A stretch of 64,000 nt of DNA, taken from assembly GCA_944332295.1 (NCBI GenBank), contig CALVJR010000001.1, positions 128,585 to 192,584 of the forward strand, given 5' to 3'. Source of the stretch: an uncultured Bacilli bacterium (lineage in GTDB: Bacteria > Bacillota_I > Bacilli_A > RF39 > UBA660). The notes under the pieces are model-generated. The model saw only the letters and a program-made list of their open reading frames with translations. It was not told the DNA's origin and made no database searches. Position numbers and translations under genes: made by a program. Shown one piece after another: positions 3,001-42,922 of this stretch (its first letter is position 1; each line of letters begins with the position of its first letter).

Positions 3001-6000
3001 ATGGAAACAGCACTATAAATATTCTAGCAGGAAACATCGCAACAGATATCTATGGTGGAGGCGAAGGAGGTTATACTAGCTCAAGGTCTCCAGGAACTTT
3101 TGTAAGAGATAATATCTCAGTAACAATAGGAAATGACATATCGGGTCCAACCATCAATGGAAATGTCTATGGAGGAAGTGCCTACGGAAGTGTCAATGGA
3201 ACAAGTAACAATGGAAGTGCAAATAATAAAACCACTAATGTAACAATAAATCAAGGTGTAATTGCTAAATCTGTTTTTGGTGGTGGTAAAGGAAATGCTG
3301 AGTACACACCAAAAGTATATGGAAATATTACAGTAACAATTAACAATGGTAGTATCGGAAACGTATTTGGAGGAAATGATGCTGCCGGAAGCCCTAGCAA
3401 TAATGATGTTGTCTACTTAAATGGTGGAGTAATAGAAAATGCTTATGGTGGAGGAAATCAAACTGGTCAAACCATAACCAATATTTATCTACAAGGTTCA
3501 CAAGTAACAAAACTATTTGGAGGTTCGAATCAGTCTGGTACTGTAAATACAGCTAATGTATATGTATCCGCTGGAACATCAGAATATGTCTATGGTGGTA
3601 ACAACAGTGGTGGAACAACAAGAGAAGCCAATGTAACAATTACGGGAGGAACAGTAACAAAAGAAGTCTATGGTGGAGGAAGCAAAGCTGATACGGATGA
3701 GACTCATCTATACTTAGGAAATGCCACCTTAAATGATGTTTATGGTGGAGGAGAGTCAGCAAGTGCTACGACAACAGAAGCAACCATTGAAGGAGCAACG
3801 ATAACAAACTACTATGGAGGATCTAATAAATCTGGAACTGTGGATACAACAACGACAACTATGAACTCTGGAAATGTTGGTAATATGTACGGTGGAAATA
3901 ATGTTGGAGGAACATCAAACACAGCAAATATCACCATAGAAAATGGTACTATAGGTACAATTTATGGTGGTGGAAATCAAGTAGCCTCATCATTTGCCAA
4001 TATTAACATTAATAATGGTAATATCACTAACATCTTTGGTGGTGGAAATGAAGCCGGACTAAATACATCAACCATTAATGTTGCTGCTGGAGCAATTGGA
4101 AATATTTATGGAGGGTCTAACCAATCTGGTAACATTACCCAAACAACGATTACAACAGAAAATAACCAAAATATTACAATTAATAATATTTTTGGTGGAA
4201 ATAACATGGGAGGACTAACATCAAATGCTAACCTAGATATTGGTGGAGGAGTAATCGGAAATATTTATGGTGGAGGAAATGAAGCAGAAGTAGAAACTCC
4301 AATCGTAGATATAGAAAACGCAACCGTAACCAATGTCTTTGGTGGAGGAAACAAAGCTAGAATCACTGGAGATACTAATGTTTCTATTACAAATAGTAAT
4401 ATTCTAACCAATGTTTACGGTGGAGGAAACGAAGGAGAAGTAGATGGAAATACTGAAGTACTATTAAATGGCAGTACCATTTTAGGAAGTGCCTATGCTG
4501 GAGGAAACGGAAGAACAGCCATTGTTAATAGAAATACAACAATCACAGTAGAAAATAATACCGTGGTAGGATCTGATAGTTCTAAAGCACCACATAGTGG
4601 ATGTGTTTTTGGAAGTGGTAATGCCGCAGCAACAGGTACAGAAGCTCAAAATAATTCTCTAGCAACCGTAAATATTGTTGGAGCAAAAATATATGGAAAC
4701 GTGTATGGAGGAGCAAATACTTCTGTTGTTTACGGAAAAACAGATACCAATATCGGAACAAATGCTGTAAATATTGAGGGACTAATAGAAACCTCTATCG
4801 ATATTGGAGGAACCGTCTTTGGTGGAGGAGAAGCAAATGCCGCAGGAGACGAAGATTACGACTTCTCATTCATCTCCGTAACAGGAGCAATCGATATTGA
4901 TATTGATGGAAAAAATTATTTAAATAATAATCATAACTTTATCATTTCAGGTTCAATATTTGGTTCTGGAAACGCATCATCTTCTAGTGGAACTAGTGAA
5001 ATCTATATAGCAAACCTAGGAACTAGAGAAAATCCTAGTAAAAATATCTCTATTCAAAGAGCAAACACAGTAATACTTGATAATACGACAATGGAATTAG
5101 AAGGAACAACCGATAGAACCAATGAATATTCAGATATCGAATATTCACTAAACCGAATTGATGAATTAACAATAAAAAATAATACTATGTTATTATTACA
5201 AAGAAATGCCAACCTTCTACAAAAATTCAGAAGTACTGTAGATGTAGATGGAAAAGAAGAAAAAGCCACAGTAATTATTGATGATGATACAAAAACAGTA
5301 ACTAAAAATGTAGATAATCGTCTATATTTATTAGCGAATAGAAACTTAAATATCACGACCAATGAAGCTGCTACTGCCTATGGAGAGGTGTATGGTATGA
5401 CTTTCTTTGGAATGTATCAAAGATATGGTAATGGTTCTTTCTCTTACGGATTATATGAAGATTCAGTAAACTATGGAGATAGTGGTGATGCCGGGGATAT
5501 CATCGTAGGAGGATCTTATGTATTAGGACTTCATAGCTTAAATCATGATATCACCGTAGATGGATTCTACAGCAACTTTATTGATGATGCTTATACTGAA
5601 ATATCAACGGCATATATTAATCCAACACCACCAGATTCTAACTATTATATGTGGACAATCGGTATTTCAGCAATCAACTATTCATTTGCTATGACAGCAT
5701 CAAAATATTCATCTCTTGGTACCTATGAATTATCAATGAGGGAATTCGCCAAAGGAGACACAACATTTGAAGTAATAGGATTTAATTCAGAAGGACTAAC
5801 ATCCGGAGTAGAATTAGTAGATTCTAATGAAGTGCCTAAAGTCGCTGATACCGAAGAAGATGCCAATAGTATTTTAGGTCTTTCAATGAAGAGTGAAACT
5901 AGTGAGTGGACATCTTACGGTACAACAAAATTATTAAGTGAAAACAACGGTACATATACAGGAGACGAAATATATAAAACGGATAGTCAACCTCTAGCAC

Positions 6001-7628
6001 CATCACTCATGTTTTATCTATACCATGCTAAAAATATTACTCTAAATCAAGAATTAGGTACAGTTGTTGTAACATTACAAGCAAAAACACCAATTAATGA
6101 AATAGAGTATGACGTTCAATTAATTACAATAACGATTGACTTAGTAGCAAGAAACTATGATGATGGTAATTCATACGATGCCAGTATTACTTATGACAAA
6201 AAATATGAAATGCCAGCAGCAACTACAGTAAATATTACAAATCAAAGTCAGTTTACTGCATACTTCGACCTATTTGCATGGAGTGATACATTTGAAGATT
6301 TCTATGGACGAGGAAACACATATTACCATGCACTAGTAACTGACTATGCATTACCAGTAGGTACTCAGATTACAATGTTAGATTATAGTAAAGAAGGAGA
6401 TCCGAAATATTACTATTATACAATTGATGAAGCAGAATATAATAGAGCCCTACAGCAATTAGAAACAGATAATGAAATTACCTATCGTCTAAGTAATTTT
6501 ATAAAAATGGGTAGTACAAGTGAGAATAATACCTATGACGATAAATTTGCCAATAAATCATACTATGATGAAGAGAAAAAACGTACCATGGAAGAGTTCT
6601 TGTTTATCTTTGATTTTAAAAACACGAACATAACAGGTAATGAATTAAATAAATATATGCGTTTTGAACTACGTAATCAAGAAGATAGAACGGTAATTAC
6701 AGTACTAGGTATTAGACAAAACTTAATGTACTTTAACTTATATGAAAGTAGTAATATGGTTTTAAATCAAGAAGTAACTCCAGACAATAATTACATCTAT
6801 CCAGGTACTGCTAGACATATTGCATATTCAACAGCAATTACTTATGATCAGACTGGAAATCGTGAGTCGATTATTAATACAAATTATGAATCAACAAGCA
6901 TGGGCTTGAATGTTACTTTATATGATCAATCGGGAACGCAAATCAGTTCTAGTTTATTAACAGGAACATCGATTCGTATGGATGGAGTAGAATACTTTGC
7001 AGATAGTGAAGGAGTCTTCAGAATAAAACTAGCTGGCAAGGTCTCAAACTTAAATAAAGATTTATATTTCTTAACAGATGAAAGCCTACCTGCAGGAAAT
7101 TATAAAATGGTATTCACTTTATTTGCATCTTCAGATGGTCTACACAACTCAGGTAATTTACAATATGTAGAAAAAACATTAGATGTAACAGTAGTACCAT
7201 CAGACAATGCGATTAAAGTAACTGGTGTAGACGAGCAGAAGGTAATCAATGGAATAACAAGATTAAATGAGCAAGATAGAAGCGACGCAACCTATAGAAT
7301 TACAACTACTCAAAATCTAACTAGTCCAAACCTACGTGTTGCATTATATAAGAGAAATATCGATAACAAAGATACCACTGCATATACAGAAGTAAGTATG
7401 GATGAAGTATTTGTACATACATTAACAACACCAATTGATAATGGCCTAACACCAGGTACACCAAACGAGTTAATGGTAGGAAATACAGTAGGACCACAAA
7501 CAGAGGTAACCATGAGTTATGCAGAAACTTTAACTAGTGGAACTTATCGTATCGTATTTAGATTATATGACCAAAATCAGTTAATAGATGAGGACCATGA
7601 ATACATAATTATCAAAAAATTAGAATGA
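1..7628 (+). CDS. Giant repeat-rich surface protein, 5' partial
   Basis: The frame is open from base 3, so the gene begins outside the window; the first in-window ATG (147) is not the start. About 2,540 residues are visible. The N-terminal part has a GLUG-like stretch (GLVAGKVNDKTTIKNI). The middle holds roughly 32 units ending in motifs such as VYGGGN, IFGGGN and IYGGSN, with Thr/Ile/Asn-rich strands between them, typical of a right-handed beta-solenoid. The last ~600 residues lack the motif and look like beta-sandwich domains. No LPXTG-like anchor or C-terminal membrane segment is seen. A terminator follows directly. Adhesin or matrix protein is inferred from composition and from the SipW/TasA-like genes downstream; no ligand or enzymatic role is visible. 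Confidence 0.85.
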   Translation, partial: AQIENINFNNVEIKTTPSENPTILGLVAGKVNDKTTIKNIAIQNATINMENTLAKQENRIGGVIAETSTDTVVENIYVNAEIKDANANSFGTVFGTLKGKAKRIITQVTYTNFLSVNVDEYAAIEEGATLEEEYQLVSNGTSLYIQNQQETSIDSLLEILNLNIDSKYNWVQEGLTLKIAMKQIVTLEQEEIPVQFAFGRSADIPLHESGITDTTVYINDLESDYNYYQGLNYTQSNTGALPTGNNQSLYSDSNLVKVYIKYSGEDINDVNLVGHVSLEEQQYEYIYYKYYVVENNYVTIELIDNPFADHPNDKGFNGWVTNYPNAVISFDEETYTRYVTIPVTYTNGVPDTINITFYSSWLDANIYEMTRNNTWDEASNVLKSTGMVLLTGRSIGYEDMSNYYVYGGSISFGRTYPTGAYDNRLNSRENEYCFSFGGCTYYLRNDSSEYDSSKTYYRFNGSRLVEYTPQMVDSGPLENIPYGSIASGLYKEVTLSRGTSIEGYYNSLGVKQTSGACTQSSCKYYELEQYYNSDGTVNTVTNGSNYYYFVTRDMNIVVARTDINTAWSISKPFTLTGIHNGNDYSDSRYYINNNAISISADTRIEYITSYTTRTFSNRNASGSRNAANIIYGNWHNLKIGRGIKTRGGNYVFADSIIGGGNNATGSRNDITRYKLIIESGAYNTTGIVNGGTTSNISDYVGAQAIYGNDYDRINNNNDNLEVYFSAVGSWGGNLHSSSDATDLAIDLVVKSGQFGTSKSDVSTGLYVGGRSYGDHYAPKRTIIEGGWIYNVNGGPLVSDDVSDQIATYTYMKGGQVDFIFGGAGTSETYGHRVIGVTGGTVNYSVFGGSNGYEGRTGDGTLSGYGFVYVGGNATIGNNDYNLSGSENWGVEKGSVFGIGNGKQNYDNIGSNSGSIVIIDKEATINGNVYGGGNYGYVGIRNQTTTNIKINGGTIKGSIYGGGNNNGAGTNNIDAEINIEMTTGTVEGSIYGGSRTKGTIYGNSTINILAGNIATDIYGGGEGGYTSSRSPGTFVRDNISVTIGNDISGPTINGNVYGGSAYGSVNGTSNNGSANNKTTNVTINQGVIAKSVFGGGKGNAEYTPKVYGNITVTINNGSIGNVFGGNDAAGSPSNNDVVYLNGGVIENAYGGGNQTGQTITNIYLQGSQVTKLFGGSNQSGTVNTANVYVSAGTSEYVYGGNNSGGTTREANVTITGGTVTKEVYGGGSKADTDETHLYLGNATLNDVYGGGESASATTTEATIEGATITNYYGGSNKSGTVDTTTTTMNSGNVGNMYGGNNVGGTSNTANITIENGTIGTIYGGGNQVASSFANININNGNITNIFGGGNEAGLNTSTINVAAGAIGNIYGGSNQSGNITQTTITTENNQNITINNIFGGNNMGGLTSNANLDIGGGVIGNIYGGGNEAEVETPIVDIENATVTNVFGGGNKARITGDTNVSITNSNILTNVYGGGNEGEVDGNTEVLLNGSTILGSAYAGGNGRTAIVNRNTTITVENNTVVGSDSSKAPHSGCVFGSGNAAATGTEAQNNSLATVNIVGAKIYGNVYGGANTSVVYGKTDTNIGTNAVNIEGLIETSIDIGGTVFGGGEANAAGDEDYDFSFISVTGAIDIDIDGKNYLNNNHNFIISGSIFGSGNASSSSGTSEIYIANLGTRENPSKNISIQRANTVILDNTTMELEGTTDRTNEYSDIEYSLNRIDELTIKNNTMLLLQRNANLLQKFRSTVDVDGKEEKATVIIDDDTKTVTKNVDNRLYLLANRNLNITTNEAATAYGEVYGMTFFGMYQRYGNGSFSYGLYEDSVNYGDSGDAGDIIVGGSYVLGLHSLNHDITVDGFYSNFIDDAYTEISTAYINPTPPDSNYYMWTIGISAINYSFAMTASKYSSLGTYELSMREFAKGDTTFEVIGFNSEGLTSGVELVDSNEVPKVADTEEDANSILGLSMKSETSEWTSYGTTKLLSENNGTYTGDEIYKTDSQPLAPSLMFYLYHAKNITLNQELGTVVVTLQAKTPINEIEYDVQLITITIDLVARNYDDGNSYDASITYDKKYEMPAATTVNITNQSQFTAYFDLFAWSDTFEDFYGRGNTYYHALVTDYALPVGTQITMLDYSKEGDPKYYYYTIDEAEYNRALQQLETDNEITYRLSNFIKMGSTSENNTYDDKFANKSYYDEEKKRTMEEFLFIFDFKNTNITGNELNKYMRFELRNQEDRTVITVLGIRQNLMYFNLYESSNMVLNQEVTPDNNYIYPGTARHIAYSTAITYDQTGNRESIINTNYESTSMGLNVTLYDQSGTQISSSLLTGTSIRMDGVEYFADSEGVFRIKLAGKVSNLNKDLYFLTDESLPAGNYKMVFTLFASSDGLHNSGNLQYVEKTLDVTVVPSDNAIKVTGVDEQKVINGITRLNEQDRSDATYRITTTQNLTSPNLRVALYKRNIDNKDTTAYTEVSMDEVFVHTLTTPIDNGLTPGTPNELMVGNTVGPQTEVTMSYAETLTSGTYRIVFRLYDQNQLIDEDHEYIIIKKLE
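1970..4980 (+). repeat. Tandem degenerate YGGGN-type coding repeats
   Basis: About 32 copies of a unit of roughly 20-45 codons lie inside the giant gene. Each unit ends in a [IVAMLY]-[YF]-G-G-[GSN]-[NSEK] motif, often coded by variants of tatggtggaggaaat, preceded by a strand of the type TxVxIxxGTIxxN. Unit length varies, so these are diverged repeats rather than recent exact duplications. Confidence 0.85.
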
Positions 7629-7633
7629 AAATC

Positions 7634-7662
7634 AAAAGGAACTACCAGGTAGTTCCTTTTAT
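7634..7662 (+). terminator. Rho-independent terminator after the giant gene
   Basis: A perfect 13-bp stem (aaaaggaactacc / ggtagttcctttt) with a one-base loop lies just after the stop codon. It separates the giant gene from the next one. Confidence 0.9.
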
Positions 7663-7688
7663 TATAGAAGAATCCCTTCTGTTATACC

Positions 7689-7717
7689 TTGAAAAAAGAA
7701 AATAAATATGATAATCT
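7689..7717 (+). promoter_or_regulatory. Candidate promoter for the Ser-less SipW-like gene
   Basis: TTGAAA, 17 bases, then TAATCT, about 35 bases before the coding start at 7751. Placement after a terminator supports it; the -10 match is moderate. Confidence 0.45.
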
Positions 7718-7750
7718 AATATAGAGTAGAAAATAGAAGCGGGTGAACAG

Positions 7751-8335
7751 ATGAAAAAATTCTTAAAAGGATGCTGGGGAGTATTACAAGTAATTATTAT
7801 TGTATATGTAATTTGTATTACAGTATGTCTATTATGTAAAAATAAATACGGGTTTACACAAATAGGTGATATGACACTAATTACAATCAATGAAGAACTA
7901 CAACAATACTTACCAGAAACAAAAGAAAAAGACTTATTATTAGTAAAAGAAACAAAAAATGATATGAATGTTGGAGATAAGATTTATTATTATGCAACAG
8001 CAAATAATGAATATATTATAAAAACAGCACACATCAAAGAAAAGATAACATCAGATGAAAATATGTCTTTATATAAATTAGATGATGAAGCTGGATCAAC
8101 TATCGCAACAACAAGAGTCATCGGAAAGTATTCTACAATATATAATAATATTGGAGGAATATTAGATATCTTAGAGTCAAGATTAGGATTCTTATTACTA
8201 GTTATTTTACCTATTCTTTTAATCTTTATGTATCAAATATATGCTTTGATTATAGTGATTAAATACGGAGAAGAAGAAGCAGAAGAAGAATTAAAACAAA
8301 AAAAGCAAAAAGAAAAAGAAATAGAGTTACTATAA
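7751..8335 (+). CDS. SipW-like signal peptidase homologue lacking catalytic Ser
   Basis: 194 residues with the layout of archaeal/ER-type signal peptidase I: an N-terminal membrane segment (about 9-30), an extracytoplasmic domain, a C-terminal membrane segment (about 143-172) and a charged cytoplasmic tail. The order of blocks (DLLLVKE, NVGDKIYYY, TAHIKEK, RVIGKY) parallels the intact SipW at 14383-14973. Where that enzyme has TGSMIP, this protein reads TINEEL, with Asn in place of the catalytic Ser; a His (TAHIKE) remains. It is therefore probably not a peptidase and may be a chaperone or scaffold for neighbouring TasA-like exports (inferred). Ribosome site: gggtgaacag before ATG. A second Ser-less copy is at 23274-23795. 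Confidence 0.6.
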   Translation: MKKFLKGCWGVLQVIIIVYVICITVCLLCKNKYGFTQIGDMTLITINEELQQYLPETKEKDLLLVKETKNDMNVGDKIYYYATANNEYIIKTAHIKEKITSDENMSLYKLDDEAGSTIATTRVIGKYSTIYNNIGGILDILESRLGFLLLVILPILLIFMYQIYALIIVIKYGEEEAEEELKQKKQKEKEIELL

Positions 8336-8358
8336 AGATTAAGCAATTAATCTTTTTC
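8335..8358 (+). terminator. Rho-independent terminator
   Basis: aagattaa / ttaatctt stem with a four-base loop followed by a T-rich run, directly after the stop codon of the SipW-like gene. Confidence 0.75.
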
Positions 8359-8378
8359 TTTTTGTAAACAAAAGGTTG

Positions 8379-8387
8379 TGTTATAAT
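8379..8387 (+). promoter_or_regulatory. Extended -10 promoter for the TasA-like operon
   Basis: TGTTATAAT is an extended -10 element about 22 bases before the start codon, after a terminator. No good -35 is visible at the usual distance. Confidence 0.6.
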
Positions 8388-8409
8388 ATCATTAGAAAGG
8401 TAGAATAAG

Positions 8410-8988
8410 ATGAAAATAGTAAAAAAACATAAAATGATAGCTTTAGTAATAGTAATATTAATCTGTCTTTTATATCTAAAAGGTAATAGTACTTATACAT
8501 CTTATGAATCAGAAGTAACAGGAAATGTAGAAAGTGATATTGCAGACTGGAAAATCAAAGTAAATGATACCTTGATTACGACGGAAAATGAACAAGTAAT
8601 TAATATTGATTCTATAAGTTGGGAAACCAATCATACAAGAGATGGAAAAGCATCTCCTGGTGCATCAGGAACCATAGAGATAACGATAGACCCTACCTCA
8701 ACAGGAGTAGCTTTTAACTATGAATTAACAGTAATTGACCAAACGGTAGATCCTACAAAAATATTAGTAGTAAATGAAATAGATACAGACGTAGGAAAAT
8801 TTGAAAAAATAGATAATACTTATTATGGTAGTATGTCACTTGATAATATCAAAGCAGGAAAAAAAGAAAAACTAACGATGCATGTAAAATGGGAAGACCA
8901 TGGCGAAGACACAGTGGTAGTACCAGGGGATGAACCAACAACTTCAGATTTTATCGAAATGAGTTTTAAAGTCGCACAGAAAAAATAA
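8410..8988 (+). CDS. TasA/camelysin-like membrane-anchored protein
   Basis: 192 residues: a short basic N-terminus, one hydrophobic segment (about 10-25), then a beta-rich domain opening with TSYESEVTGNVESDIADWKI. That pattern (aromatic residues, then Gly, then an A-x-W-x-I/V strand) is the signature start of the TasA/CalY (camelysin) fibre family normally processed by SipW. It also carries a DPTSTGVAFNYEL strand and a KVKWED-like strand found in its paralogue at 15733-16338. Despite the old peptidase M73 label of this family, no protease motif is visible. First gene of a three-gene run. Role as a surface or matrix fibre subunit is inferred from family and context. Confidence 0.6.
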   Translation: MKIVKKHKMIALVIVILICLLYLKGNSTYTSYESEVTGNVESDIADWKIKVNDTLITTENEQVINIDSISWETNHTRDGKASPGASGTIEITIDPTSTGVAFNYELTVIDQTVDPTKILVVNEIDTDVGKFEKIDNTYYGSMSLDNIKAGKKEKLTMHVKWEDHGEDTVVVPGDEPTTSDFIEMSFKVAQKK

Positions 8989-8999
8989 GGAGGAAAAAT

Positions 9000-9638
9000 A
9001 TGCTAAAGGAAAAGCACAAACTTAAAATATTAAATAAATTTAAAAAAGAAAATATAGCATATTTTGAAGAAAAGAAAAGATTTATAATTGTTATTTTAGT
9101 GATGTTCCTAATTATTTTTATTGCAGTAAAACTATTTCAAATAGCCTATGCCTCATATGAATCAACAGCAAAATTAAATGCAAATATTGAAAAAGCAGTT
9201 TATATATTAAAAGAAGGAGGAATGGATTTTAATATTGATTTAGATAAAATAGAACCTTCTCCAGATCCTTATATATATAAGTTTAGTATTTCAAACTTTA
9301 ATGGAAATAAGCACAGTGATGTAGATATCGAATACAGTATATCCATTACAACCACAACCAATCTACCATTAACATATGAATTATATAGAAATGAAAATTA
9401 TGATGATGAGAATGCAACCAATCTATTTAAAGATATGACAGTAAAGCAAGATGCAGATGGTGCTTGGTATAACTATTTTGAAGGAAAAGAATTATATTAT
9501 TTTCCATACGAAGAAGATCTAACAGATATATATACATTAGTAATCTATTTTAAAGAAGAAAATAAGATGACAACAGATTATGCAGATAGTCTAGAAAATA
9601 TTGAGGTAAAATTACAGTCACATCAAGTAACAGAATAG
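9000..9638 (+). CDS. Membrane-anchored TasA-like protein
   Basis: 212 residues. A charged cytoplasmic N-terminus of about 28 residues precedes one membrane segment (about 29-47) ending in AYASYES, the same aromatic/Ser junction seen in its TasA-like neighbours. The exported part is beta-rich (DIEYSISITTTTNLPLTYEL) without a recognisable enzymatic motif. The gene follows its neighbour by 11 bases behind an aaggaggaaaa ribosome site and precedes the next by 9, so the three are co-transcribed. Likely an accessory or anchor subunit of the same surface structure. Confidence 0.5.
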   Translation: MLKEKHKLKILNKFKKENIAYFEEKKRFIIVILVMFLIIFIAVKLFQIAYASYESTAKLNANIEKAVYILKEGGMDFNIDLDKIEPSPDPYIYKFSISNFNGNKHSDVDIEYSISITTTTNLPLTYELYRNENYDDENATNLFKDMTVKQDADGAWYNYFEGKELYYFPYEEDLTDIYTLVIYFKEENKMTTDYADSLENIEVKLQSHQVTE

Positions 9639-9647
9639 AGGTGTAAT

Positions 9648-10580
9648 ATGAATTTTATAAGAACTCATAAAAAGTTAAGTATCATAGTATTAATCATCGC
9701 AATAATATTGTTTCTTTATGGTACTACATTAGCTCGATACATCTATAATGCAATTCATAATTATATCTTAGAAAGTAAAGAATTTTATTTTAATAGTACA
9801 GTATTAGATATGAATACAAAACAATTTAGAATTAATAATTGGGACGGTGTTAATGACTATGTATTAACAATAGACGTAAATAATAAGAAAAACTCACTAA
9901 AAAGTACACCTAGTGACATCTCTTACAAGATAGAAGTATCCTGTCCAGATACAGTAGAGTGTAAACTAAGTAAAACAGAAGGCATTATTTATCAAACAGC
10001 CGGAACGGATAGTTATCAAGTAACAGTAATACCAAAAGACAATTTCTATGAAGGGGATGAAGTAGAAGTAACAACTACTGCAACCTCAACATCTCCATAT
10101 GTAAAATCACTATCAGCAACTTATACCATTGGTATTGAAACAAGTAATTTTACTTATGATATAACAGATGCAAAGAATGACAAGTTTTTAACATTAAATT
10201 TAACAAATGCTCTAACATACTACAAGGTAGAAAAATCATTTGGAGCATATCAAGAAGGGGACAGACTTTCAACCGAAGAATATCAAGCATTAACAGAAGA
10301 AGAAAAAGCAAACTGTTTTTCAGCAAAAGTAACTTTATCTATTCCGACAAGAGAAATATATTTAGACATGACAAACAAGAATTACTTAGCAAAAATAGCT
10401 GGTTCAGAAAAAACAGAGACCATAGATAATTTTAATTATGTAAAAGAATTTACTTTTAAAATGGATGCTAGTTCCAGTGAAAAAGTAATATTTTATAAAG
10501 AAGATATTACAAAAGATTATACATATCCCATAGTAAATGAGGAATCCATAGTAACAGTAACCGTAGAAACTGCAGAATAG
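9648..10580 (+). CDS. Membrane-anchored beta-rich exported protein
   Basis: 310 residues: one N-terminal membrane segment (about 10-28, ending GTTLARYI) and a beta-rich extracytoplasmic region of perhaps two Ig-like domains, for example SYKIEVSCPDTVECKLSK and VTVIPKDNFYEGDEVEV. The LARY junction is again TasA/camelysin-like, but the body is longer than that family. Four Cys residues are present. Third and last gene of the 8410-10580 operon. Exact function unknown; a structural surface protein is inferred from context. Confidence 0.45.
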   Translation: MNFIRTHKKLSIIVLIIAIILFLYGTTLARYIYNAIHNYILESKEFYFNSTVLDMNTKQFRINNWDGVNDYVLTIDVNNKKNSLKSTPSDISYKIEVSCPDTVECKLSKTEGIIYQTAGTDSYQVTVIPKDNFYEGDEVEVTTTATSTSPYVKSLSATYTIGIETSNFTYDITDAKNDKFLTLNLTNALTYYKVEKSFGAYQEGDRLSTEEYQALTEEEKANCFSAKVTLSIPTREIYLDMTNKNYLAKIAGSEKTETIDNFNYVKEFTFKMDASSSEKVIFYKEDITKDYTYPIVNEESIVTVTVETAE

Positions 10581-10583
10581 GCT

Positions 10584-10611
10584 TTGAAAGAAAAAAGATA
10601 TGTGTTATAAT
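10584..10611 (+). promoter_or_regulatory. Promoter of the McrB-like/SipW operon
   Basis: TTGAAA, 16 bases, TATAAT, with an additional TG one base before the -10 (extended -10). It starts a new transcript 33 bases before the gene at 10644; an aaggagg ribosome site follows. Confidence 0.75.
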
Positions 10612-10643
10612 TTACCTAGCATAAAATAAGGAGGAGAAAAGAT

Positions 10644-11702
10644 ATGAACTTAGTAACTAAATTTTTAGAATATAAGAAAAATAAACTAGTTTCGTACGGA
10701 CTAGCACTTTTCTCCGAAACTGAATATCATGATTTTTTAGTAGAGTGCTTAAAAAAATATATCAATAATTATATAGAAGTGAAATATCATCAACAGTTTG
10801 AAACCGTATCTGATAATTCTGAAGTAACAAAAGAAGTAATAGAAGAAGAACAGACTGGAATGAGACTAGAACTATTAGATGACCTATCAGTAAAAGAAAT
10901 TATCGAAACAAACGAAGGATATATTAGAAAACAAGAACTAATTAATGTCGCAGCAACAATTGCTAAAACTATAATAAGAATAGATACTTTAGACTTAACA
11001 GAAGAAAATAAGGATGAAAAACTAGATAGAGTATTAAAAGAAGCAAATAAAGAATTCCCTCTACGCCAAAATGCCAAAACATTAATCGTAAAAATATGGC
11101 GAGAAGAAGAGGGAACAATAAAAAAGATATTAACACCAAAAGAAAGTTTTACTCTAAACTTAATATCATATGAGGGCAATATAAAAGAAGTAAAATTAAC
11201 TCCTCAAATAAAGCAATTAAATATCTATAAAAAAAGTCTAGTAGAAAGAGTTTATCAAGAAGAAAAAGTAACATATGAAAAAATAAAATTAATGATAATC
11301 TTGTTAAATCAATTAGTATTAGAAAAAATAATAAAAAAAGAAGAAATAGAAAATTACATGGTAATCATTCCCGATGAAATATGGACAAAAAAGCAAAAAA
11401 TGGATGCGATATACGAACTATTAGATGACAAAATCCTAAAAGAACATATTTTATTAGGAATTACTTATAACACATTAATTAGTAATAAGACAATACAAGA
11501 AAAAAGAAAAGAAAAATATAAGTTTATCTGTCTCCAAGATTTTACACACATTAATGATATTCCAACCAAAATAAGTAATATTGATACTTCTAATTTATTT
11601 GATTATTTAATGGTAACATCATACAAAGATAAAGACTTTAAAGAGTTTGAAAATATAGAAGTAACGACAATGAAAGGAATTTTATTTAGTAAGGAAGGTT
11701 AA
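10644..11702 (+). CDS. Unknown protein preceding McrB-like ATPase
   Basis: 352 residues, not recognised. No signal peptide or membrane segment; acidic/basic helical composition with Glu/Lys-rich stretches. The start has a strong aaggagg ribosome site. The stop is two bases before the ATG of the AAA+ gene, so the products are probably made together. It is the first gene of an operon that continues through the ATPase, the DUF2357 protein, SipW and a TasA-like protein, so a cytoplasmic adaptor or third subunit of the McrB-like complex is the simplest guess. No nuclease motif could be picked out by eye. Confidence 0.5.
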   Translation: MNLVTKFLEYKKNKLVSYGLALFSETEYHDFLVECLKKYINNYIEVKYHQQFETVSDNSEVTKEVIEEEQTGMRLELLDDLSVKEIIETNEGYIRKQELINVAATIAKTIIRIDTLDLTEENKDEKLDRVLKEANKEFPLRQNAKTLIVKIWREEEGTIKKILTPKESFTLNLISYEGNIKEVKLTPQIKQLNIYKKSLVERVYQEEKVTYEKIKLMIILLNQLVLEKIIKKEEIENYMVIIPDEIWTKKQKMDAIYELLDDKILKEHILLGITYNTLISNKTIQEKRKEKYKFICLQDFTHINDIPTKISNIDTSNLFDYLMVTSYKDKDFKEFENIEVTTMKGILFSKEG

Positions 11703-11704
11703 GT

Positions 11705-13246
11705 ATGAATACATTTATAAGGTTTTTATATGAATTTATGTCTGTTTTCTTTAATGGTCTTTATACCATAGGTAAAGGAATTGTATCTGGAATTGCTCAA
11801 ATGTTTAATATTAGTGAGTATTTATACATCATACAATTTTATAAAAATGATTTTAATGTATCAGAATGGGTACTAGTAATTATTGCGATTATCGTATTAA
11901 TCATATTATTAGGATTAATACTAGTCTTAGGCTGGTTACTAATTAGAAAATATATTAGATTTAGAAAAACATTAGTAGAGCAAGAATCAATGTTAGCAGA
12001 AATCGGAGAATTAAATAAAAAAGTAGCAAGCCTAGTAAAAGAAAAAGAAGAAATACTAGCAATGAAAGTATCTCAATTAGGACTAAAACCAGGGGAAGCA
12101 GAAATATTGGATGAAAAAGAAAATAAAGAAAAACAAGACGAAGTAGAAACATTAGAAGATGATGGAAATTATCGTTTCTCTAAACTACATGCTATTGACT
12201 TACAATTTAAAGATTATAAAGTACAAAATTATAATAATACATTCACTCTAGAAGAATTAGTAGAATTATTTAGAAACTTTGCCGCATCAAAATTAAGACT
12301 GTATTATACAACGAATATGATAAGATTATTTATCTCATCACTATCCGCAACAAAACTAGTAATACTACAAGGTATTTCTGGTACTGGTAAAACATCTCTT
12401 GCTTATGCCTGGGGAAAATTTATAAAACGAGATGCCATTATCGCATCAGTACAACCATCTTGGAGAGACCGTACGGAGTTATTTGGTTACTTCAACGAAT
12501 TTACAAAGAAATTTAATGAAACAGATGTCCTAAAAGGAATGTATACAGCAGGCTATACAGATGATGTTTATGTAACTGTACTAGATGAAATGAACATTGC
12601 TCGTGTCGAATATTATTTCGCAGAAATGTTATCTATTCTGGAAATGCCTAGCCGTGATGAATGGGTAATTGAATTAGTTCCAAGTAGCTGGGATAATGAT
12701 CCAAAAAAATTAAAAAATGGAAAATTACAAATTCCAGGAAACATGTGGTATATAGGAACAATCAACAACGATGACTCTACATTCGCAGTAACAGATAAAG
12801 TATACGACCGTGCTATGCCAATCGATATCAATGACAAAGGGCAACCATTTACACCAACAGATACCGAAGCAATGAATATAAATAGTTCTTATCTAGAAAG
12901 TTTATTTGCTGAGGCAAAACAAAAACATCCTCTATCAGAAGAGATGGAAAGAAAAATTAATGAAATGGATGACTATGTAATCAAACATTTCCGTATTGCC
13001 TTCGGTAACCGTATCGTAAAACAAATGCGAGACTTTGTCGCAACTTATATTGAATGTGGTGGAACCGAAGTAGATGGAGTAGATTATTATATCGCAAGAA
13101 AGATATTAAGAAAATTTGAACAATTAAATCTAGCATATATCAGAGATGAAATCGATGGCTTTATCGATTATCTAAATAAAACATTTGGAAAAGATAACTT
13201 TAACGAATGTAAAGACTACTTATTAAGATTAAAGAAATTAGTATAG
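11705..13246 (+). CDS. Membrane-anchored McrB-like AAA+ ATPase
   Basis: 513 residues. An N-terminal hydrophobic segment (about 54-80) precedes a Lys/Glu coiled-coil stretch (about 88-150). The AAA_5/McrB-type domain has Walker A LQGISGTGKTS (about 221-231), a PSWRDRTELFGYFNE block, Walker B VLDEMNIARVEYYFAEML (from about 292) and a sensor-1-like IGTINND. These are the hallmarks of the GTP/ATP-driven McrB subfamily used in McrBC and LlaJI restriction. A membrane anchor is unusual for that family. The next gene encodes a DUF2357 protein, the usual partner in LlaJI-type pairs, but the operon also encodes SipW and a TasA-like protein. The motor may therefore act at the envelope; this is inference. 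Confidence 0.75.
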   Translation: MNTFIRFLYEFMSVFFNGLYTIGKGIVSGIAQMFNISEYLYIIQFYKNDFNVSEWVLVIIAIIVLIILLGLILVLGWLLIRKYIRFRKTLVEQESMLAEIGELNKKVASLVKEKEEILAMKVSQLGLKPGEAEILDEKENKEKQDEVETLEDDGNYRFSKLHAIDLQFKDYKVQNYNNTFTLEELVELFRNFAASKLRLYYTTNMIRLFISSLSATKLVILQGISGTGKTSLAYAWGKFIKRDAIIASVQPSWRDRTELFGYFNEFTKKFNETDVLKGMYTAGYTDDVYVTVLDEMNIARVEYYFAEMLSILEMPSRDEWVIELVPSSWDNDPKKLKNGKLQIPGNMWYIGTINNDDSTFAVTDKVYDRAMPIDINDKGQPFTPTDTEAMNINSSYLESLFAEAKQKHPLSEEMERKINEMDDYVIKHFRIAFGNRIVKQMRDFVATYIECGGTEVDGVDYYIARKILRKFEQLNLAYIRDEIDGFIDYLNKTFGKDNFNECKDYLLRLKKLV

Positions 13247-13264
13247 AATAAAGGAGGGTAACAT

Positions 13265-14389
13265 ATGGAAGATGAAATTGAACTATTAGAAGAAACCACA
13301 AATAGTGATATATTTTTAAATAATATAAATGCAATATTATCAGTAAAAAAAGATTATGAAAAAAAAGAATATGACTATGAATGGATTGATATGATAGATG
13401 AGACTCTTCCATATCTAGACAATATTCTAAGAAATCCTAAAAGATTTATTATCAATGAGGAAGAAGTAGTACAAGTAGAAAAATCAAAGAAAGTAACTGT
13501 AGAAAGTATTATTCACTTAACACAACATACCAACTATATTCAAAAAATAGAAGATAATGGTGATGTAAAACCATCCAAAATATTAAATATTAATAAAGAG
13601 GAAAGTCTAGATACTTATGAAAACAGATTTGTCTATACATTAATTAATAATACAAGAACTTTCTTTGAACAAAGAAAAGCAGTAACGGGAGATTTTTCTT
13701 ATTTCAAGGATAAAAAAGAATTAAAATATGAAGCAAATACTCAAATTGGTACGGAAGAAGTAGAACTATCTCTAAATATATCATCTAGAAATGAAGCAAA
13801 ATTAGAAACAGAAAAGAAAGACTCTAATGAATCAGTAGCGGATAGACTAAAAAGAATAAAAATACAACTAGATGGATTTACGGGAACAGAACTAATGCAA
13901 ACGCTATCAAGATTACATGTATCACCCGTACGTTCTCCCATTAGAAAAACAAACGTTATCTTAAAAAATCCTAACTTCCAAAAAGCAGAAGCTCTATGGA
14001 ATTATATTCAAATGTATGAAGAAAAAAATGTAAATGAAAAAGAACATAAAGATTATTATGATGAAAGTAATCTAAAAAGAGAATATAACAAAGCATTTCT
14101 AGAACTATATCTAGCAAATAAAGTTCTAGACTATGAAGCAAAACTATTAACAGAAAAGAAACTGTTGCAACAATTAATAAATCGTATGATTGAAAACATA
14201 TTAGACTCTAATTCCGAAATGACAGAAAAAACCATCAAAGAATTATTTGAACAGCAATTAAAATTAATAAAAGAAGCAAATGAAGAAAAGAAGAAAAAAA
14301 TTAGAAAGATATTATTAGAAAAGCTAGAAACAGAACAAAATAATTATATAAAAGACTGGAACATACTAGAGGAGACGAGAATATGTTAA
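13265..14389 (+). CDS. DUF2357/McrC-like partner, nuclease motif not seen
   Basis: 374 residues. The block KEESLDTYENRFVYTLINN (about 115-133) matches the core of DUF2357 proteins, which pair with McrB-like AAA+ ATPases. It also has VSPVRSPIRKTNVILKNP, a conserved-looking loop. Authentic McrC/LlaJI partners carry a C-terminal PD-(D/E)xK nuclease; here the C-terminus is a Lys/Glu-rich helix and no such motif is visible. Strong ribosome site aaaggagggt. The 3' end overlaps sipW by 7 bases, so the two are translationally coupled. It is probably the cytoplasmic partner of the ATPase at 11705; a role in surface assembly rather than restriction is a hypothesis. Confidence 0.6.
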   Translation: MEDEIELLEETTNSDIFLNNINAILSVKKDYEKKEYDYEWIDMIDETLPYLDNILRNPKRFIINEEEVVQVEKSKKVTVESIIHLTQHTNYIQKIEDNGDVKPSKILNINKEESLDTYENRFVYTLINNTRTFFEQRKAVTGDFSYFKDKKELKYEANTQIGTEEVELSLNISSRNEAKLETEKKDSNESVADRLKRIKIQLDGFTGTELMQTLSRLHVSPVRSPIRKTNVILKNPNFQKAEALWNYIQMYEEKNVNEKEHKDYYDESNLKREYNKAFLELYLANKVLDYEAKLLTEKKLLQQLINRMIENILDSNSEMTEKTIKELFEQQLKLIKEANEEKKKKIRKILLEKLETEQNNYIKDWNILEETRIC

Positions 14390-14973
14390 GAAAGATATTA
14401 GATAGCAAATACTTTCAGATTCCATATAGAATAATAAAAGCAATAATTATTATTGTAATGGTAACATATGTAACTTTCGTGGTTGTTCAAAGAGTAAGTG
14501 GAAATAAAAGTATTTTTGGTTATCGTATTTTTACAGTTGCAACTGGAAGTATGATTCCTGACTATGAAATAAATGATGTTTTAGCAATCAAAGAAGTAAA
14601 CTCAGACGAATTAGAGGTAGGAGATGATATTACTTATCTCGGAAAAAAATTAGATGTTAATGGAAAAATAGTTACCCATAGAATTATTAATATAAAAATA
14701 GAGGACGGAAAGAAAGAATTTATAACGAAGGGTGTAAACTCTTCAGCAGAAGATCCTGCCATAACAGATGATCAAATCTATGGTAAAGTAATAGGAAAAA
14801 TTCCTGTTATAACCACAATCAATCATATTATAAAAAATCAATATGGCTTCTTCTTCCTAATCTTTCTTCCTTTAGTAACGGTAATCTTTTTAGAAATTGC
14901 TGATACAGTAACGGAAATAAAATTAGAAAAAAAGAAGGTTGAGGATAATGAAGATGTGGAAGAAATTATTTAA
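14383..14973 (+). CDS. sipW: Signal peptidase I, SipW type
   Basis: 196 residues: N-terminal membrane segment (about 18-37), catalytic Ser in ATGSMIPDYE (S56), then LEVGDDITYL and the His of VTHRIINI (H99), which replaces the Lys of ordinary bacterial enzymes, then a TKGVNSSAEDPAI loop supplying acidic residues, and a second membrane segment near 150-172. This is the archaeal/ER-type S26B enzyme that releases TasA/camelysin-type proteins. It is the only one of the three SipW-like genes in the window with an intact active site. It overlaps the genes on both sides, and its immediate downstream neighbour is a likely substrate. Confidence 0.85.
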   Translation: MLRKILDSKYFQIPYRIIKAIIIIVMVTYVTFVVVQRVSGNKSIFGYRIFTVATGSMIPDYEINDVLAIKEVNSDELEVGDDITYLGKKLDVNGKIVTHRIINIKIEDGKKEFITKGVNSSAEDPAITDDQIYGKVIGKIPVITTINHIIKNQYGFFFLIFLPLVTVIFLEIADTVTEIKLEKKKVEDNEDVEEII

Positions 14974-15706
14974 ATTAGATCAACCAGTAAATGAAAGAAG
15001 AAAAAGTAGAAGAAAAACCATTGTAAGAAGTATATTACTAATCGCTTTTTTACTAATAATCAATACGTTTGCATGGTTTACTTATATTTCAAAAGCTAAT
15101 TTATCTCTTAATGGAAGCGTAGTATCCTGGGAAGTAAGTTTCTTAGATCAAAATAGTATCATAAAAGATATAAATATTGCAATTACAGATATGAAGCCAG
15201 GAATGATGCAATTTGCAAAAACAATTGATATCGTAAATAACAGTGACGTAGCTGCCCAATTTACATATAAAATAACATCAGTAGAGTTACTAGGAACCAA
15301 AATATTCGAAGGAGAAGAAACGGAGACAATTAAACAAAAATTAGAGCAAGAGTTTCCTTTTACGTTAAAGATGATAGTAGGAAAACAAGATTTAGATTTA
15401 ACTGATACAAGTAGTTTCGAAGTAACAATGGACTGGACTTATGAAGAAGATAAATATTATAAAGTAAACAGTCTATATACATATGATCCAGCAGTTAATT
15501 ACTATGTGTTAATAAATGATACTTACCAAGTAGATAGTACCGTAACAGAAGAAAATTTCCAGTCTAAAGTACAAACTGGAATATATTTAGCAAAAGATGA
15601 TGCAGATAGTTTCTTCGGTTATGCCTGTGGCAATTATGAAAAAAATACCAAGAAACCATGTATGGATGTCCATATAGAATTAGAAGTGAGTCAAAGAACT
15701 CCATAA
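14948..15706 (+). CDS. TasA-like exported protein
   Basis: 252 residues from the ATG at 14948. A longer frame from TTG at 14939 is possible, but aagg at 14935-14938 sits nine bases before this ATG. A basic N-terminus (RRKSRRK) precedes one hydrophobic segment (about 27-45) ending AWFTYISKANLSLNG, the TasA/camelysin-type cleavage region followed by the SWEVSF strand. The exported domain is beta-rich, and two Cys (YACGN, KPCMD) near the C-terminus may pair. Overlap with sipW makes it the prime SipW substrate candidate. Last gene of the operon; a bidirectional terminator follows. Confidence 0.6.
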   Translation: MKMWKKLFKLDQPVNERRKSRRKTIVRSILLIAFLLIINTFAWFTYISKANLSLNGSVVSWEVSFLDQNSIIKDINIAITDMKPGMMQFAKTIDIVNNSDVAAQFTYKITSVELLGTKIFEGEETETIKQKLEQEFPFTLKMIVGKQDLDLTDTSSFEVTMDWTYEEDKYYKVNSLYTYDPAVNYYVLINDTYQVDSTVTEENFQSKVQTGIYLAKDDADSFFGYACGNYEKNTKKPCMDVHIELEVSQRTP

Positions 15707-15707
15707 A

Positions 15708-15734
15708 AAAGCAGTTTTATGATAAAACTGCTTT
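15708..15734. terminator. Bidirectional terminator between convergent genes
   Basis: A perfect 13-bp stem (aaagcagttttat / ataaaactgcttt) with a one-base loop lies between the convergent stop codons and is flanked by A and T runs, so it can serve both strands. Confidence 0.9.
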
Positions 15735-16338
15735 AATTATTTAACTGACTAAATTGAAGAGTAACACTCATCAATGCTTTACTTTCATCATCAGTAGCAA
15801 CCTCTGTATCCGCTTGATTATCCATAGTACCCTCATCATCATCCCATTTTATATAAACCCTAAATACTGTTTGATTAGTATTTTTAGAAATCTGTTGAAC
15901 AATTCCAGTATCTGCAGAATAAGTTAATCTCTCATCAGTATCACTAACTGGATTAATGACATAAGATAAAGTCTTTAAATCAGAAACACTAGAATCTACA
16001 GAAACATCAGAGTGCATAGTACATAAAAAGTTAACATCTACATCACTTGCATCAATCGTAATAGTATAATATCCTTCCACACCAGGAGCAATAACTCCTT
16101 CTTTCGTATTTTCAGACTCCAAAAATGTAGGCTCGATAGTAGTAGTTAATGTTTTTTTATTAGCAATATCTTCACCATTAACTTTAATATTCCAATTAGC
16201 AATATCAGAAGAAACTGTTCCTTCTAGTTGTCTTCGATATTTAGCATAAGAAGATTGAAATAAATAAAGAAGACAACAACTAACTAAAACAATAAACAAA
16301 ATAACAAATTTTATATCCTTTTTCTTAGCATTAGTCAT
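15733..16338 (-). CDS. TasA/camelysin-like exported protein, opposite strand
   Basis: 201 residues: N-terminal membrane segment (about 10-28), junction SSYAKYRRQLEGTVSSDIAN and strand WNIKVNGED, then APGVEGYYTITID and a KWDDDEG strand. This is the clearest camelysin-type sequence in the window and a paralogue of the protein at 8410-8988 (shared VSSDIANW/VESDIADW start and Pro-Gly-x-x-G turn). It is transcribed alone against the SipW operon. A SipW substrate and fibre subunit role is inferred from the family. Confidence 0.65.
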   Translation of the reverse strand: MTNAKKKDIKFVILFIVLVSCCLLYLFQSSYAKYRRQLEGTVSSDIANWNIKVNGEDIANKKTLTTTIEPTFLESENTKEGVIAPGVEGYYTITIDASDVDVNFLCTMHSDVSVDSSVSDLKTLSYVINPVSDTDERLTYSADTGIVQQISKNTNQTVFRVYIKWDDDEGTMDNQADTEVATDDESKALMSVTLQFSQLNN

Positions 16339-16410
16339 AAGACACCTACCTTACACTTAATTTTATCACAGAATAAAAGAAATAAAAAGTGTGTAAACTA
16401 AAAAAACAAA

Positions 16411-16428
16411 TAGTAAAATTGTTTACTA
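16411..16428. promoter_or_regulatory. Inverted repeat upstream of the lipoprotein gene
   Basis: tagtaaa and tttacta form a perfect 7-bp inverted repeat with a four-base spacer, between the divergent TasA-like and lipoprotein genes. It could be an operator; no regulator is identified. Confidence 0.3.
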
Positions 16429-16471
16429 TAGAAAAAAAGATATGATATATTCATAATAAGGATGTGAAAAT

Positions 16472-17314
16472 ATGAAAAAGAAAATAGCGTTAATCATAGG
16501 AATGTCTCTAGTAACCATATTATTAACAGGGTGTGATGGAACGGTAACAAGAGATATCAGACATGCAGGATTTAATCTATCAAATAATGAGTTCGAATGT
16601 AGTGAGTTAATGCCAATAGGAGATAGTGCAGAACCAAATGACAAAATACTATTTATGAATGAAACTTATGCTATTACAGAAAACGGTAATTTATATGATA
16701 TATCATTATCTCAATCCTATAGCAATAACCAAAATTGTAAACAAATAAATTTTGAACAAGACATCATCGCTTATATGGATAGTAATATTTTAAAAGGGGA
16801 AGATAATAAATATTATTATGCTCCAGGTACTAACAATACAACCCCGTTAACAGAGGTAACCGCAAACGACAGTAATTATCAACTTTATACATTACTATTG
16901 GGAAATGAAAATGTAAAAAAAGTAATAACAGTAGACTCTAATGCAGGAATTTATTACGTTTTAGAAAATGATGGAGTAGTATACCAATATACAATTACAA
17001 GACAAAATTATTCAGCACCATATACATTAGTATCAAAGGAACCAGTATATGATAAAGGAAAATATGGACAAATTGTAGATTTTAACTATGCTGGAGACTC
17101 TACTTCTACTTATATAAAAACCAGTACACAAATTTATCGTATGCAAAAAACAAATGAAGAAGAATGTACAAAATATGCTGATGTAGCATGCAAATATACC
17201 ATGAAAAAAGACGAAACACTAACAAAGTACTATAAAACAGAACCCAAAATATTATATTACGGACCATCTATCTTAATTACAACCTACAAAAAAGAATTTA
17301 CACCAATATCGTAA
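16472..17314 (+). CDS. Lipoprotein of unknown function
   Basis: 280 residues with a clear lipoprotein signal: MKKKIALIIG, hydrophobic core, lipobox LLTGC (Cys about 21). The mature part has repeated short strands such as ENGNLYDISL and NDGVVYQYTI, as in beta-propeller-like regions, and pairs of Cys near the C-terminus (EEECTKYADVACKY). Ribosome site aaggatgtgaaa before ATG. No enzymatic motif recognised. Monocistronic: its own terminator overlaps the stop codon. Confidence 0.7.
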   Translation: MKKKIALIIGMSLVTILLTGCDGTVTRDIRHAGFNLSNNEFECSELMPIGDSAEPNDKILFMNETYAITENGNLYDISLSQSYSNNQNCKQINFEQDIIAYMDSNILKGEDNKYYYAPGTNNTTPLTEVTANDSNYQLYTLLLGNENVKKVITVDSNAGIYYVLENDGVVYQYTITRQNYSAPYTLVSKEPVYDKGKYGQIVDFNYAGDSTSTYIKTSTQIYRMQKTNEEECTKYADVACKYTMKKDETLTKYYKTEPKILYYGPSILITTYKKEFTPIS

Positions 17315-23273: not shown

Positions 23274-23795
23274 ATGCTAAAAAAAATTGTATTAATACTC
23301 TATGTAATAATCATAGGAATAGCAATTGGAGTTATTGTGGTATCAATGAATAGAAACGAACAAGGACTAATACAATTTGGAAATACCATATTAGTAGAAG
23401 TTGAAAATAATGTATTAGAACCAAAACTTGTAAAAGGAGACTTAGTCTTAGTAAACACAGAAGAACAAAAAGTACAAGAGAAGGATATTATTACCTATTT
23501 TACTTTAGAGAATCAAAAATCAGAAATTCGTACGAACGAAATAGCAGCCATTACAGAAGATGTAAACGGAGTAACAATTTACTCATTAAAAAAAGAAGAT
23601 GGAACAATTGAAAATATTGATGATAGCTGTATTATAGGAACATATAAATTATCGATACCTTATGCCGGTACAATTTTAAATTACATATTATCAAAAGATG
23701 GATTTTTAACGGTAACCTTAGTACCAGCAATAATTTTATTTTTAATAATGTTATTAAAATTTGTAATGGAAGTAAGTCCCAAAAAACAGATGTAA
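23274..23795 (+). CDS. Second Ser-less SipW-like protein
   Basis: 173 residues: N-terminal membrane segment (about 5-24), extracytoplasmic domain with blocks in SipW order (VLEPKLVKGDLVLVNT, VQEKDIITYF, IRTNEIAAI, CIIGTYKLS), and a C-terminal membrane segment (about 145-165). Where SipW has TGSMIP the sequence reads ENNVLEP: the catalytic Ser position is Asn, as in the copy at 7751-8335, and the catalytic His is not found (RTNEI). A peptidase-dead paralogue is inferred. Ribosome site is weak (agag) and the gene sits only 18 bases after a terminator. Confidence 0.55.
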   Translation: MLKKIVLILYVIIIGIAIGVIVVSMNRNEQGLIQFGNTILVEVENNVLEPKLVKGDLVLVNTEEQKVQEKDIITYFTLENQKSEIRTNEIAAITEDVNGVTIYSLKKEDGTIENIDDSCIIGTYKLSIPYAGTILNYILSKDGFLTVTLVPAIILFLIMLLKFVMEVSPKKQM

Positions 23796-37762: not shown

Positions 37763-37801
37763 ATTTCATTCCTCCTTTTTTGTTGGGATTTATAAATATA
37801 C

Positions 37802-37817
37802 CAGTTCGTAACAATTA
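37802..37817. repeat. Inverted copy of a right-end motif upstream of int
   Basis: The sequence cagttcgtaacaatta is the reverse complement of taattgttacgaactg-type sequence near 47341-47355. Its position between int and mob may mark an integrase-associated binding site or int control site. Confidence 0.35.
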
Positions 37818-37849
37818 TATTTTATCATACAAACTACGAATATTTATAA

Positions 37850-39232: not shown

Positions 39233-39486
39233 TTATTTTGACCTCCTTTCAATGCTTGTTTTAAAATAATACTCTATCTCACTAGGGCATAATATATGCC
39301 CAACCGTGAGCTAAGGAATATTCCTTAGAATCCTTTATGCTTGTAATAGCTAGAGCCAATACCTAATAAATAGGTAAAGGCGTTCGCTATCACAAGATTA
39401 ATTAAACGATATACTATATCATTTAATTAATGGATAATGAATTCACTATCGCCACTTCCAACCTTACAGGTCAGAACGTGCCACGT
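39233..39486 (-). other. Hairpin-rich non-coding region, candidate oriT/origin
   Basis: The 250-base gap between relaxase and RepA-like genes holds several inverted repeats: gggcat / atgccc near 39287-39303, the palindrome ctaaggaatattccttag near 39311-39328, and a near-perfect repeat of about 33 bases at 39399-39431 (attaattaaa ... tttaattaat with gatata / tatatc inside). MobV oriTs usually lie just upstream of mob, so this is where an oriT, and possibly a replication origin, is expected. No nic site was assigned. Confidence 0.45.
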
Positions 39487-40437: not shown

Positions 40438-40452
40438 TTTGTATCTCCTTTC

Positions 40453-40704
40453 TTACATGTTTTTAATTAATTGTTTACTAGAAACTCTAGATTCTAAATA
40501 AGGAATATCTATATCAAAGAATGCTACAACTTCTTTTGTTGGAACAACAGACTTTGGAATAAGATAACCTTGTTTTTCTAATTTATCTTTTATTTTCTTT
40601 TTAGCTTTTAGTGCAGAATTCCTACCTAGATGTCCTAACTTCATAATATCTTCTAGGGTGCACCATTGCTTAGCTATTAATTTTAATGTTTCTTCTGCAG
40701 ACAT
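40453..40704 (-). CDS. Small DNA-binding protein, DUF3173/excisionase-like
   Basis: 83 residues. CTLEDIMKLGHLGRNSALKA followed by KKIKDKLEKQGYLIP and a PTKEVVAFFDI end looks like a helix-turn-helix of the DUF3173 or excisionase type found in integrative elements. Strong ribosome site (gggaggaaaataat on its strand). Part of the leftward operon; might direct excision or start replication. Assignment rests on a short motif. Confidence 0.5.
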   Translation of the reverse strand: MSAEETLKLIAKQWCTLEDIMKLGHLGRNSALKAKKKIKDKLEKQGYLIPKSVVPTKEVVAFFDIDIPYLESRVSSKQLIKNM

Positions 40705-40724
40705 ATTATTTTCCTCCCTTCGTA

Positions 40725-40979: not shown

Positions 40980-41003
40980 ATTCTTAACCTCCTTCCTTTG
41001 TAA

Positions 41004-41055: not shown

Positions 41056-41074
41056 TACAATTTGACCGAAAAAC

Positions 41075-41103: not shown

Positions 41104-41143
41104 TAAATTGTTGAGAGAAAAAAGGGGAGAAAGAAGTGTTATT

Positions 41144-41665: not shown

Positions 41666-41677
41666 GGAGATGATATT

Positions 41678-42905: not shown

Positions 42906-42922
42906 GTTAGGAGAATCGAAAG

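Follow-up and report, generated by a model that had tools for sequence, protein, structure and literature searches.

A CoCoPALM-type locus that places a membrane-anchored McrB-like NTPase among SipW and TasA-like surface genes in an uncultured Bacilli bacterium

Introduction

The closest described relatives of the system reported here are the CoCoPALMs, named in a 2024 eLife census of McrBC systems (PMC11090510), in which an McrB GTPase carrying an NxD motif (not NxxD, and usually followed by E or D) is fused to an FtsB-like membrane/coiled-coil domain. According to the main text of that census, these GTPases adjoin signal peptidases regarded as factors in pilus assembly, and their analysis was deferred; a literature text search found no later paper on them. 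CoCoPALMs are widespread, with no job known for them. The same source states that in CoCoNuT systems a HEPN or other nuclease is always close when McrC lacks an active one. The fibres built of TasA, in turn, form by donor-strand exchange (PMC9674648). Here we analyze a five-gene unit (genes A to E) at positions 10584-15706 of a 64,000-nucleotide stretch of contig CALVJR010000001.1 (assembly GCA_944332295.1; the whole stretch is called the window below) from an uncultured Bacilli bacterium.

The locus combines four features given for CoCoPALMs in the main text of PMC11090510, namely an NxD motif, a membrane segment with a coiled coil, a signal peptidase nearby and a DUF2357 partner, and is thus a CoCoPALM-type system, membership being judged by these described features and the FtsB likeness of gene B consisting of a membrane segment plus heptads. 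A preliminary description of this DNA, made from its letters alone, had stated that no described system has this form; that statement does not stand given the match, although the family was named only in 2024 and its parts and job are essentially undescribed in that main text. We lean, if only slightly, toward reading the locus as a nuclease-free, membrane-tethered, McrBC-derived NTPase machine serving a TasA/SipW-type surface-fibre system.

Results

The five open reading frames form one tight unit, all on the forward strand, and have the following layout:

10584-10611, forward strand: candidate sigma-A promoter, TTGAAA-N16-TATAAT with a TG-extended -10, 5' of gene A
10644-11702, forward strand: gene A, 352 amino acids; residues 1-163 helical, residues 166-352 a degenerate EAL fold; proposed cytosolic adaptor
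11705-13246, forward strand: gene B, 513 amino acids; membrane-anchored McrB-like AAA+ NTPase
13265-14389, forward strand: gene C, 374 amino acids; DUF2357 (McrC N-terminal-like), nuclease domain not visible
14383-14973, forward strand: gene D, 196 amino acids; SipW-type signal peptidase
14948-15706, forward strand: gene E, 252 amino acids from its ATG; TasA-like single-span exported beta protein
15708-15734, forward strand: terminator-like hairpin with a 12-pair stem, directly 3' of E, ending the unit

As had been noted before, sipW (D) overlaps the partner gene C (by 7 nucleotides) and a TasA-like gene, if only weakly so, comes next (E, overlapping D by 26 nucleotides). When other genomes were searched for this order, A-B-C was found in 116 of 137 loci and the full A-B-C-D-E in 102 of them (the loci come from two partly overlapping samples and are not all independent), and this recurrence puts the five-gene arrangement far beyond chance. 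The order is conserved across many genera, in records named Bacilli and Clostridia, with SipW within 6 kb in 126/137 loci and TasA-like genes in 130/137.

The membrane helix previously attributed to the ATPase was confirmed: residues 56-74 of B make up its one strong hydrophobic segment, with a heptad-like (coiled-coil-like) stretch behind it, and a strong hydrophobic N-terminal segment is present in 135/135 full-length homologues. Its Walker A motif is GISGTGKT and its NxD motif GTINNDD, and the same 135 homologues all carry GTINNDD, GTANNDD or GTINNDE; NNDD is also readable as NxxD, the NxD reading resting on the following D or E described in the main text of PMC11090510. Sequence relatives of B in the PDB are McrB only (E 1.8e-6), and there is a weak match to the ftsL_broad profile. 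Conservation of B is far above that of A and C, as would be expected if B were the engine.

Gene C matches Pfam DUF2357 (1.5e-11), and the earlier view of it as a partner without a PD-(D/E)xK nuclease gained support at the moderate confidence of its model (pLDDT 74.5, pTM 0.49). Past residue 266 the model has nothing but helices, with a long C-terminal helix at 321-373, the C-terminal part of the C homologue alignment keeps no D...(D/E)xK columns, and neither motif conservation nor the predicted secondary structure, moderate as the model is, reveals such a nuclease. Foldseek and VIA searches with C gave no useful match and missed McrC itself, hence they are no evidence of absence. Because of the moderate model and these missed matches, the evidence that C probably lacks a nuclease domain is good but not final. 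Clostridial relatives of C extend as very long charged helices (coiled coil), not as nucleases. A PDB sequence search with C gave a single match, 8uzp (0.00085); this designed stem mimetic, aligned over a helical stretch, was ignored. Overall, no nuclease was seen in A, B or C.

This bears on the possibility that the unit is an anti-phage defence device, that is, a membrane-acting relative of Type IV restriction for which fibre proteins would serve as effector or sensor. Such a role would suit a family whose relatives McrBC, LlaJI and CoCoNuT are restriction or predicted defence systems, and B does match the PADLOC candidate PDC-M26A (3.1e-33), at the domain level and with a best stretch of 118 residues of the AAA domain; no paper on PDC-M26 was found in the literature. 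Patchy presence would also fit: among 193 family genomes, C occurs in 59 and B in 58 (one match being weak), i.e., the locus is present in ~31% of them, and the resulting core list has 60 genomes with B or C and 56 with both. More broadly, a GTDB contig scan found at least 579 relatives, the best 80 of which are in records named Bacilli, Clostridia and others, and a phylum-wide sample gave strong matches in 78/392 genomes, some of them to distant multi-copy or 600-900-amino-acid relatives. Against defence stand the unit's lack of a visible nuclease or HEPN partner and the fibre genes as constant neighbours; B and C homologues sit with SipW/TasA-like genes rather than in defence islands, and housekeeping functions dominate among 76 flanking proteins (15 loci), where PADLOC matches are few. 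Since the flanks are of this kind and the PADLOC match is limited to the AAA domain, defence is less likely, and we rate it as improbable; the preliminary description had offered it as an alternative, and beyond that domain-level match it gained no positive support.

For the gene A product no family match was found and a PDB sequence search gave nothing usable, but its AlphaFold model is confident (pLDDT 94.1, pTM 0.88). The top 50 PDB fold matches (VIA) of residues 166-352 are all EAL domains (Z 11.0-13.1; rmsd 3.3-4.2 across 159-182 aligned residues), Foldseek agrees, and the structural matches include FimX and LapD, two receptors known to govern type IV pili and the retention of adhesins. 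No conserved set of EAL catalytic acidic residues is present in the alignment of A homologues; the columns at ~80% conservation are N2, F7, Y43, Y48, D114, F169, Y195, K213, Y238, D299 (acidic) and F319. Because the EAL fold is matched without conserved catalytic residues, we judge A, on its model, to be a confident helical domain joined to a degenerate EAL fold like that of FimX or LapD. A hidden nuclease in A was rejected in favor of this confident fold. In one lineage, A is ~650-810 amino acids long and has an N-terminal SipW domain (Peptidase_S24 1.3e-6), a physical link between SipW and A.

Both the resemblance to FimX/LapD and the fusion to SipW would also suit a regulatory switch rather than an assembly motor, in which A would be the sensor for a ligand or partner and the NTPase cycle of B/C would switch SipW activity, or the release of subunits, on and off. 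We regard this as unlikely, if still a serious rival, as a hexameric motor is not obviously needed for a switch and no canonical c-di-GMP network is visible in the host genome. No EAL proteins were found by sequence in that genome, and strong GGDEF genes do not track A-B-C among the family genomes (12/32 genomes with GGDEF carry A-B-C vs. 48/161 without; p 0.41), so that a c-di-GMP link via GGDEF was rejected. The sole GGDEF gene found in the host (L224, G000:C1:67300-70500) encodes a solute-binding domain, a membrane segment and a GGDEF domain whose motif reads DGNEF; throughout the family there are GGDEF matches comparable to it in score and in frame length. Based on these three observations (no EAL by sequence, one DGNEF-type gene, no tracking), a c-di-GMP role of A is unsupported here, and a protein-binding role is as likely.

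Gene D matches NF046067 (SipW; 1.5e-23) and TIGR02228 (6.5e-22) and keeps the catalytic SM...HR...D residues in alignment (SM serine and HR histidine regions). Gene E has no Pfam match; its profile link to TasA/camelysin-type proteins is weak (hhalign 85%, 77 columns, against a small and uneven TasA set, i.e., weak evidence), whereas that to the neighbouring T1 family is better (hhalign 95%, 168 columns). PDB sequence searches with E and T1 gave nothing usable. Strong E homologues occur in 49 genomes, all of them among the 60 with B or C (49/49), and in 0/133 others.

The unit had been taken for just five genes, but it is part of a ~21-kb cluster, of which the window holds, besides A-E:

1-7628, forward strand: G, giant repeat-rich surface protein
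7751-8335, forward strand: S1, SipW-like without the catalytic serine motif (candidate pseudo-peptidase); NF046067 1.9e-6
8410-8988, forward strand: T1, single-span TasA-like protein; the T1 family is E-related
9000-9638, forward strand: T2, single-span exported protein
9648-10580, forward strand: T3, single-span exported protein directly upstream of A, usually co-operonic with A
15733-16338, reverse strand: T1', T1-family exported protein, conserved at that place

The start of the G gene lies ~456 bases upstream of the window, position 147 being an internal ATG, and G homologues recur beside B/C loci. Upstream of the window part, the host cluster holds a 234-amino-acid membrane protein, a TasA-like protein, a 556-amino-acid protein and, before G, a SipW-like protein with a long cytosolic tail (418 amino acids), after which follow G, S1, T1, T2, T3, A-E and, on the opposite strand, T1'. 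A-E thus occupies the centre of a cluster for a surface structure. Candidate pseudo-peptidases, SipW-like but lacking the catalytic SM serine motif, are encoded at 7751-8335 and 23274-23795, and the S1 type is conserved in clusters beside active SipW.

One promoter had been said to drive all five genes. The candidate promoter before A, with 11/12 consensus matches, ranks top of 51 sites in 7400-16500 (a total not above the shuffled-sequence count), its TATAAT is conserved in close relatives, and the hairpin follows E. However, this -10 is absent where T3 abuts A, and since in most other loci the upstream T3 runs directly into A without a promoter, the A-E unit normally belongs to a longer operon.

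Variant architectures also exist. In one set, A-B-C is accompanied by a 420-430-amino-acid fibre-like protein, F, with no SipW nearby, and in three loci of this set, from two genera (L043, L045, L046), A-B-C comes after genes of the Tad pilus ATPase and platform-like types; a general Tad-pilus link was rejected, the Tad ATPase being elsewhere in the other genomes tested, including the host. In other families of the class, SipW-B-C stands beside TasA-like genes, or C and large proteins come with several B paralogues that are membrane-anchored; the large proteins of L215, the one multi-B locus scanned, bear YDG/MBG surface domains. SipW is missing from L212, L214, L215 and L218, where several McrB-like paralogues surround a single DUF2357 gene and two giant proteins are encoded. 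L213 and L217 have a SipW-like gene and a 600-amino-acid B relative, followed in L213 by a DUF2357-zinc-ribbon protein and an ABC-transporter-like gene, with five upstream genes bearing TasA-like leader sequences. That B-C sometimes occurs without SipW nearby, and that Tad genes adjoin in only three loci, could mean that the genes merely share a transcription unit without functional coupling. We consider this very improbable in view of the SipW-A fusion, the gene order kept across many genera in Bacilli- and Clostridia-named records, and the finding that strong E homologues never occur without B or C.

Elsewhere in the window, 36644-50000 is a mobile-element-like stretch with, by sequence reading, an integrase (36644-37762, reverse strand) and a relaxase-like gene (37850-39232, reverse strand); a defence-type reverse transcriptase lies at 46039-47220 (PADLOC RT_VI 4.1e-51) and an AbiD-like gene at 48786-49799 (1.7e-18). 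At 56880-59050, a Type II-like DNA methyltransferase (PADLOC MTase_II 1.3e-122) is followed by a gene matching type IV restriction enzymes (4.6e-8), a possible restriction-modification pair.

Discussion

Gene order, domains, predicted folds, the SipW-A fusion and co-occurrence make an NTP-driven envelope machine that makes or controls TasA-type fibres the best reading of the locus. Relatives of its motor occur within surface-fibre gene clusters in uncultured bacteria by the hundred, and the motor more probably helps to make or control such fibres than to cut DNA. The preliminary description had proposed, as one of two readings, a machine of the envelope for assembling or controlling exported fibres, and of its interpretation this part is the best supported, as opposed to the novelty and the five-gene scope claimed for it. 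We place the work at the envelope because of the membrane anchoring, the SipW linkage and the TasA-like substrates. Under this reading, and by analogy with known families, a ring of B would sit at the inner membrane face through its N-terminal span and coiled coil, and C would insert a stalk and stimulate hydrolysis as McrC does for McrB. A may link the ring either with a control signal or with the SipW peptidase, to which A is fused in one lineage. SipW (D) would process the single-span TasA-like subunits E, T1 and others (cleavage of E, again, as expected from known families), and the processed subunits would go on to form, or to cap, a fibre that bears the giant protein G. At the expense of NTP, the motor would move, release or gate subunits anchored in the membrane; at which step of fibre making the energy goes in (extraction of subunits, their hand-over to SipW, their release or their gating) is pure inference.

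Several observations weigh against this reading. The TasA membership of E is weakly supported, PF12389 (TasA/camelysin) finding nothing among E, the T proteins or the rest of the host genome, and the co-occurrence of E partly follows from its place in the same operon. B-C occurs without SipW within 6 kb in L043, L045-L047, L050, L053, L059, L149 and L152, most of these loci retaining the fibre-like gene F. Finally, the model of C is only moderate.

More tentative, and in our judgement somewhat doubtful, is the bolder proposal that a restriction-type McrBC motor minus its nuclease was recruited as the cytosolic engine of TasA-type fibre biogenesis in Gram-positives, with the EAL adaptor coupling it to SipW; if true, it would give an energized assembly route to fibres that are regarded as self-assembling outside the cell. 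Should A-B-C drive or gate the making of surface fibres, a family taken for antiviral restriction would have a role at the envelope, tools that search for defence systems and flag CoCoPALMs would be misled, and a controller powered by NTP would be added to SipW/TasA fibres. Concrete complexes for testing are offered by the A-B-C-D-E unit and by the fusion of A to SipW.

Compared with known systems, the locus shares with McrBC/LlaJI restriction an AAA+ GTPase and a DUF2357 activator, but no DNA-recognition domain or PD-(D/E)xK nuclease is seen here, the NTPase is membrane-anchored and the operon is a fibre operon. CoCoNuTs likewise have NxD McrB-like GTPases with coiled coils and a partner often without an active nuclease; unlike in CoCoNuTs, no HEPN or other nuclease is seen here, the neighbours being SipW, TasA-like and surface proteins, and the membrane and fibre links present here are not described for them. 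With tapA-sipW-tasA of Bacillus subtilis the locus has in common SipW and exported single-span beta proteins; the former, however, is a three-gene operon without an NTPase, and E is weakly TasA-like and outside PF12389. A resembles FimX and LapD, which control surface appendages, in its degenerate EAL fold, and differs from them in having neither a sequence-detectable EAL nor a GGDEF domain, with c-di-GMP binding unsupported. The closest likeness is to CoCoPALM as the main text of PMC11090510 describes it: B is an NxD McrB-like GTPase with an N-terminal membrane/coiled-coil part, C is the DUF2357 partner (the coiled coil being fused to it in clostridial relatives), and SipW, overlapping C, is the signal-peptidase neighbour. 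Gene A, TasA-like subunits, pseudo-SipW, the SipW-A fusion and the giant protein, all present here, are absent from that main text, relative to which the degenerate EAL adaptor, its fusion to SipW, the TasA-like and giant partners and the pseudo-SipW are new.

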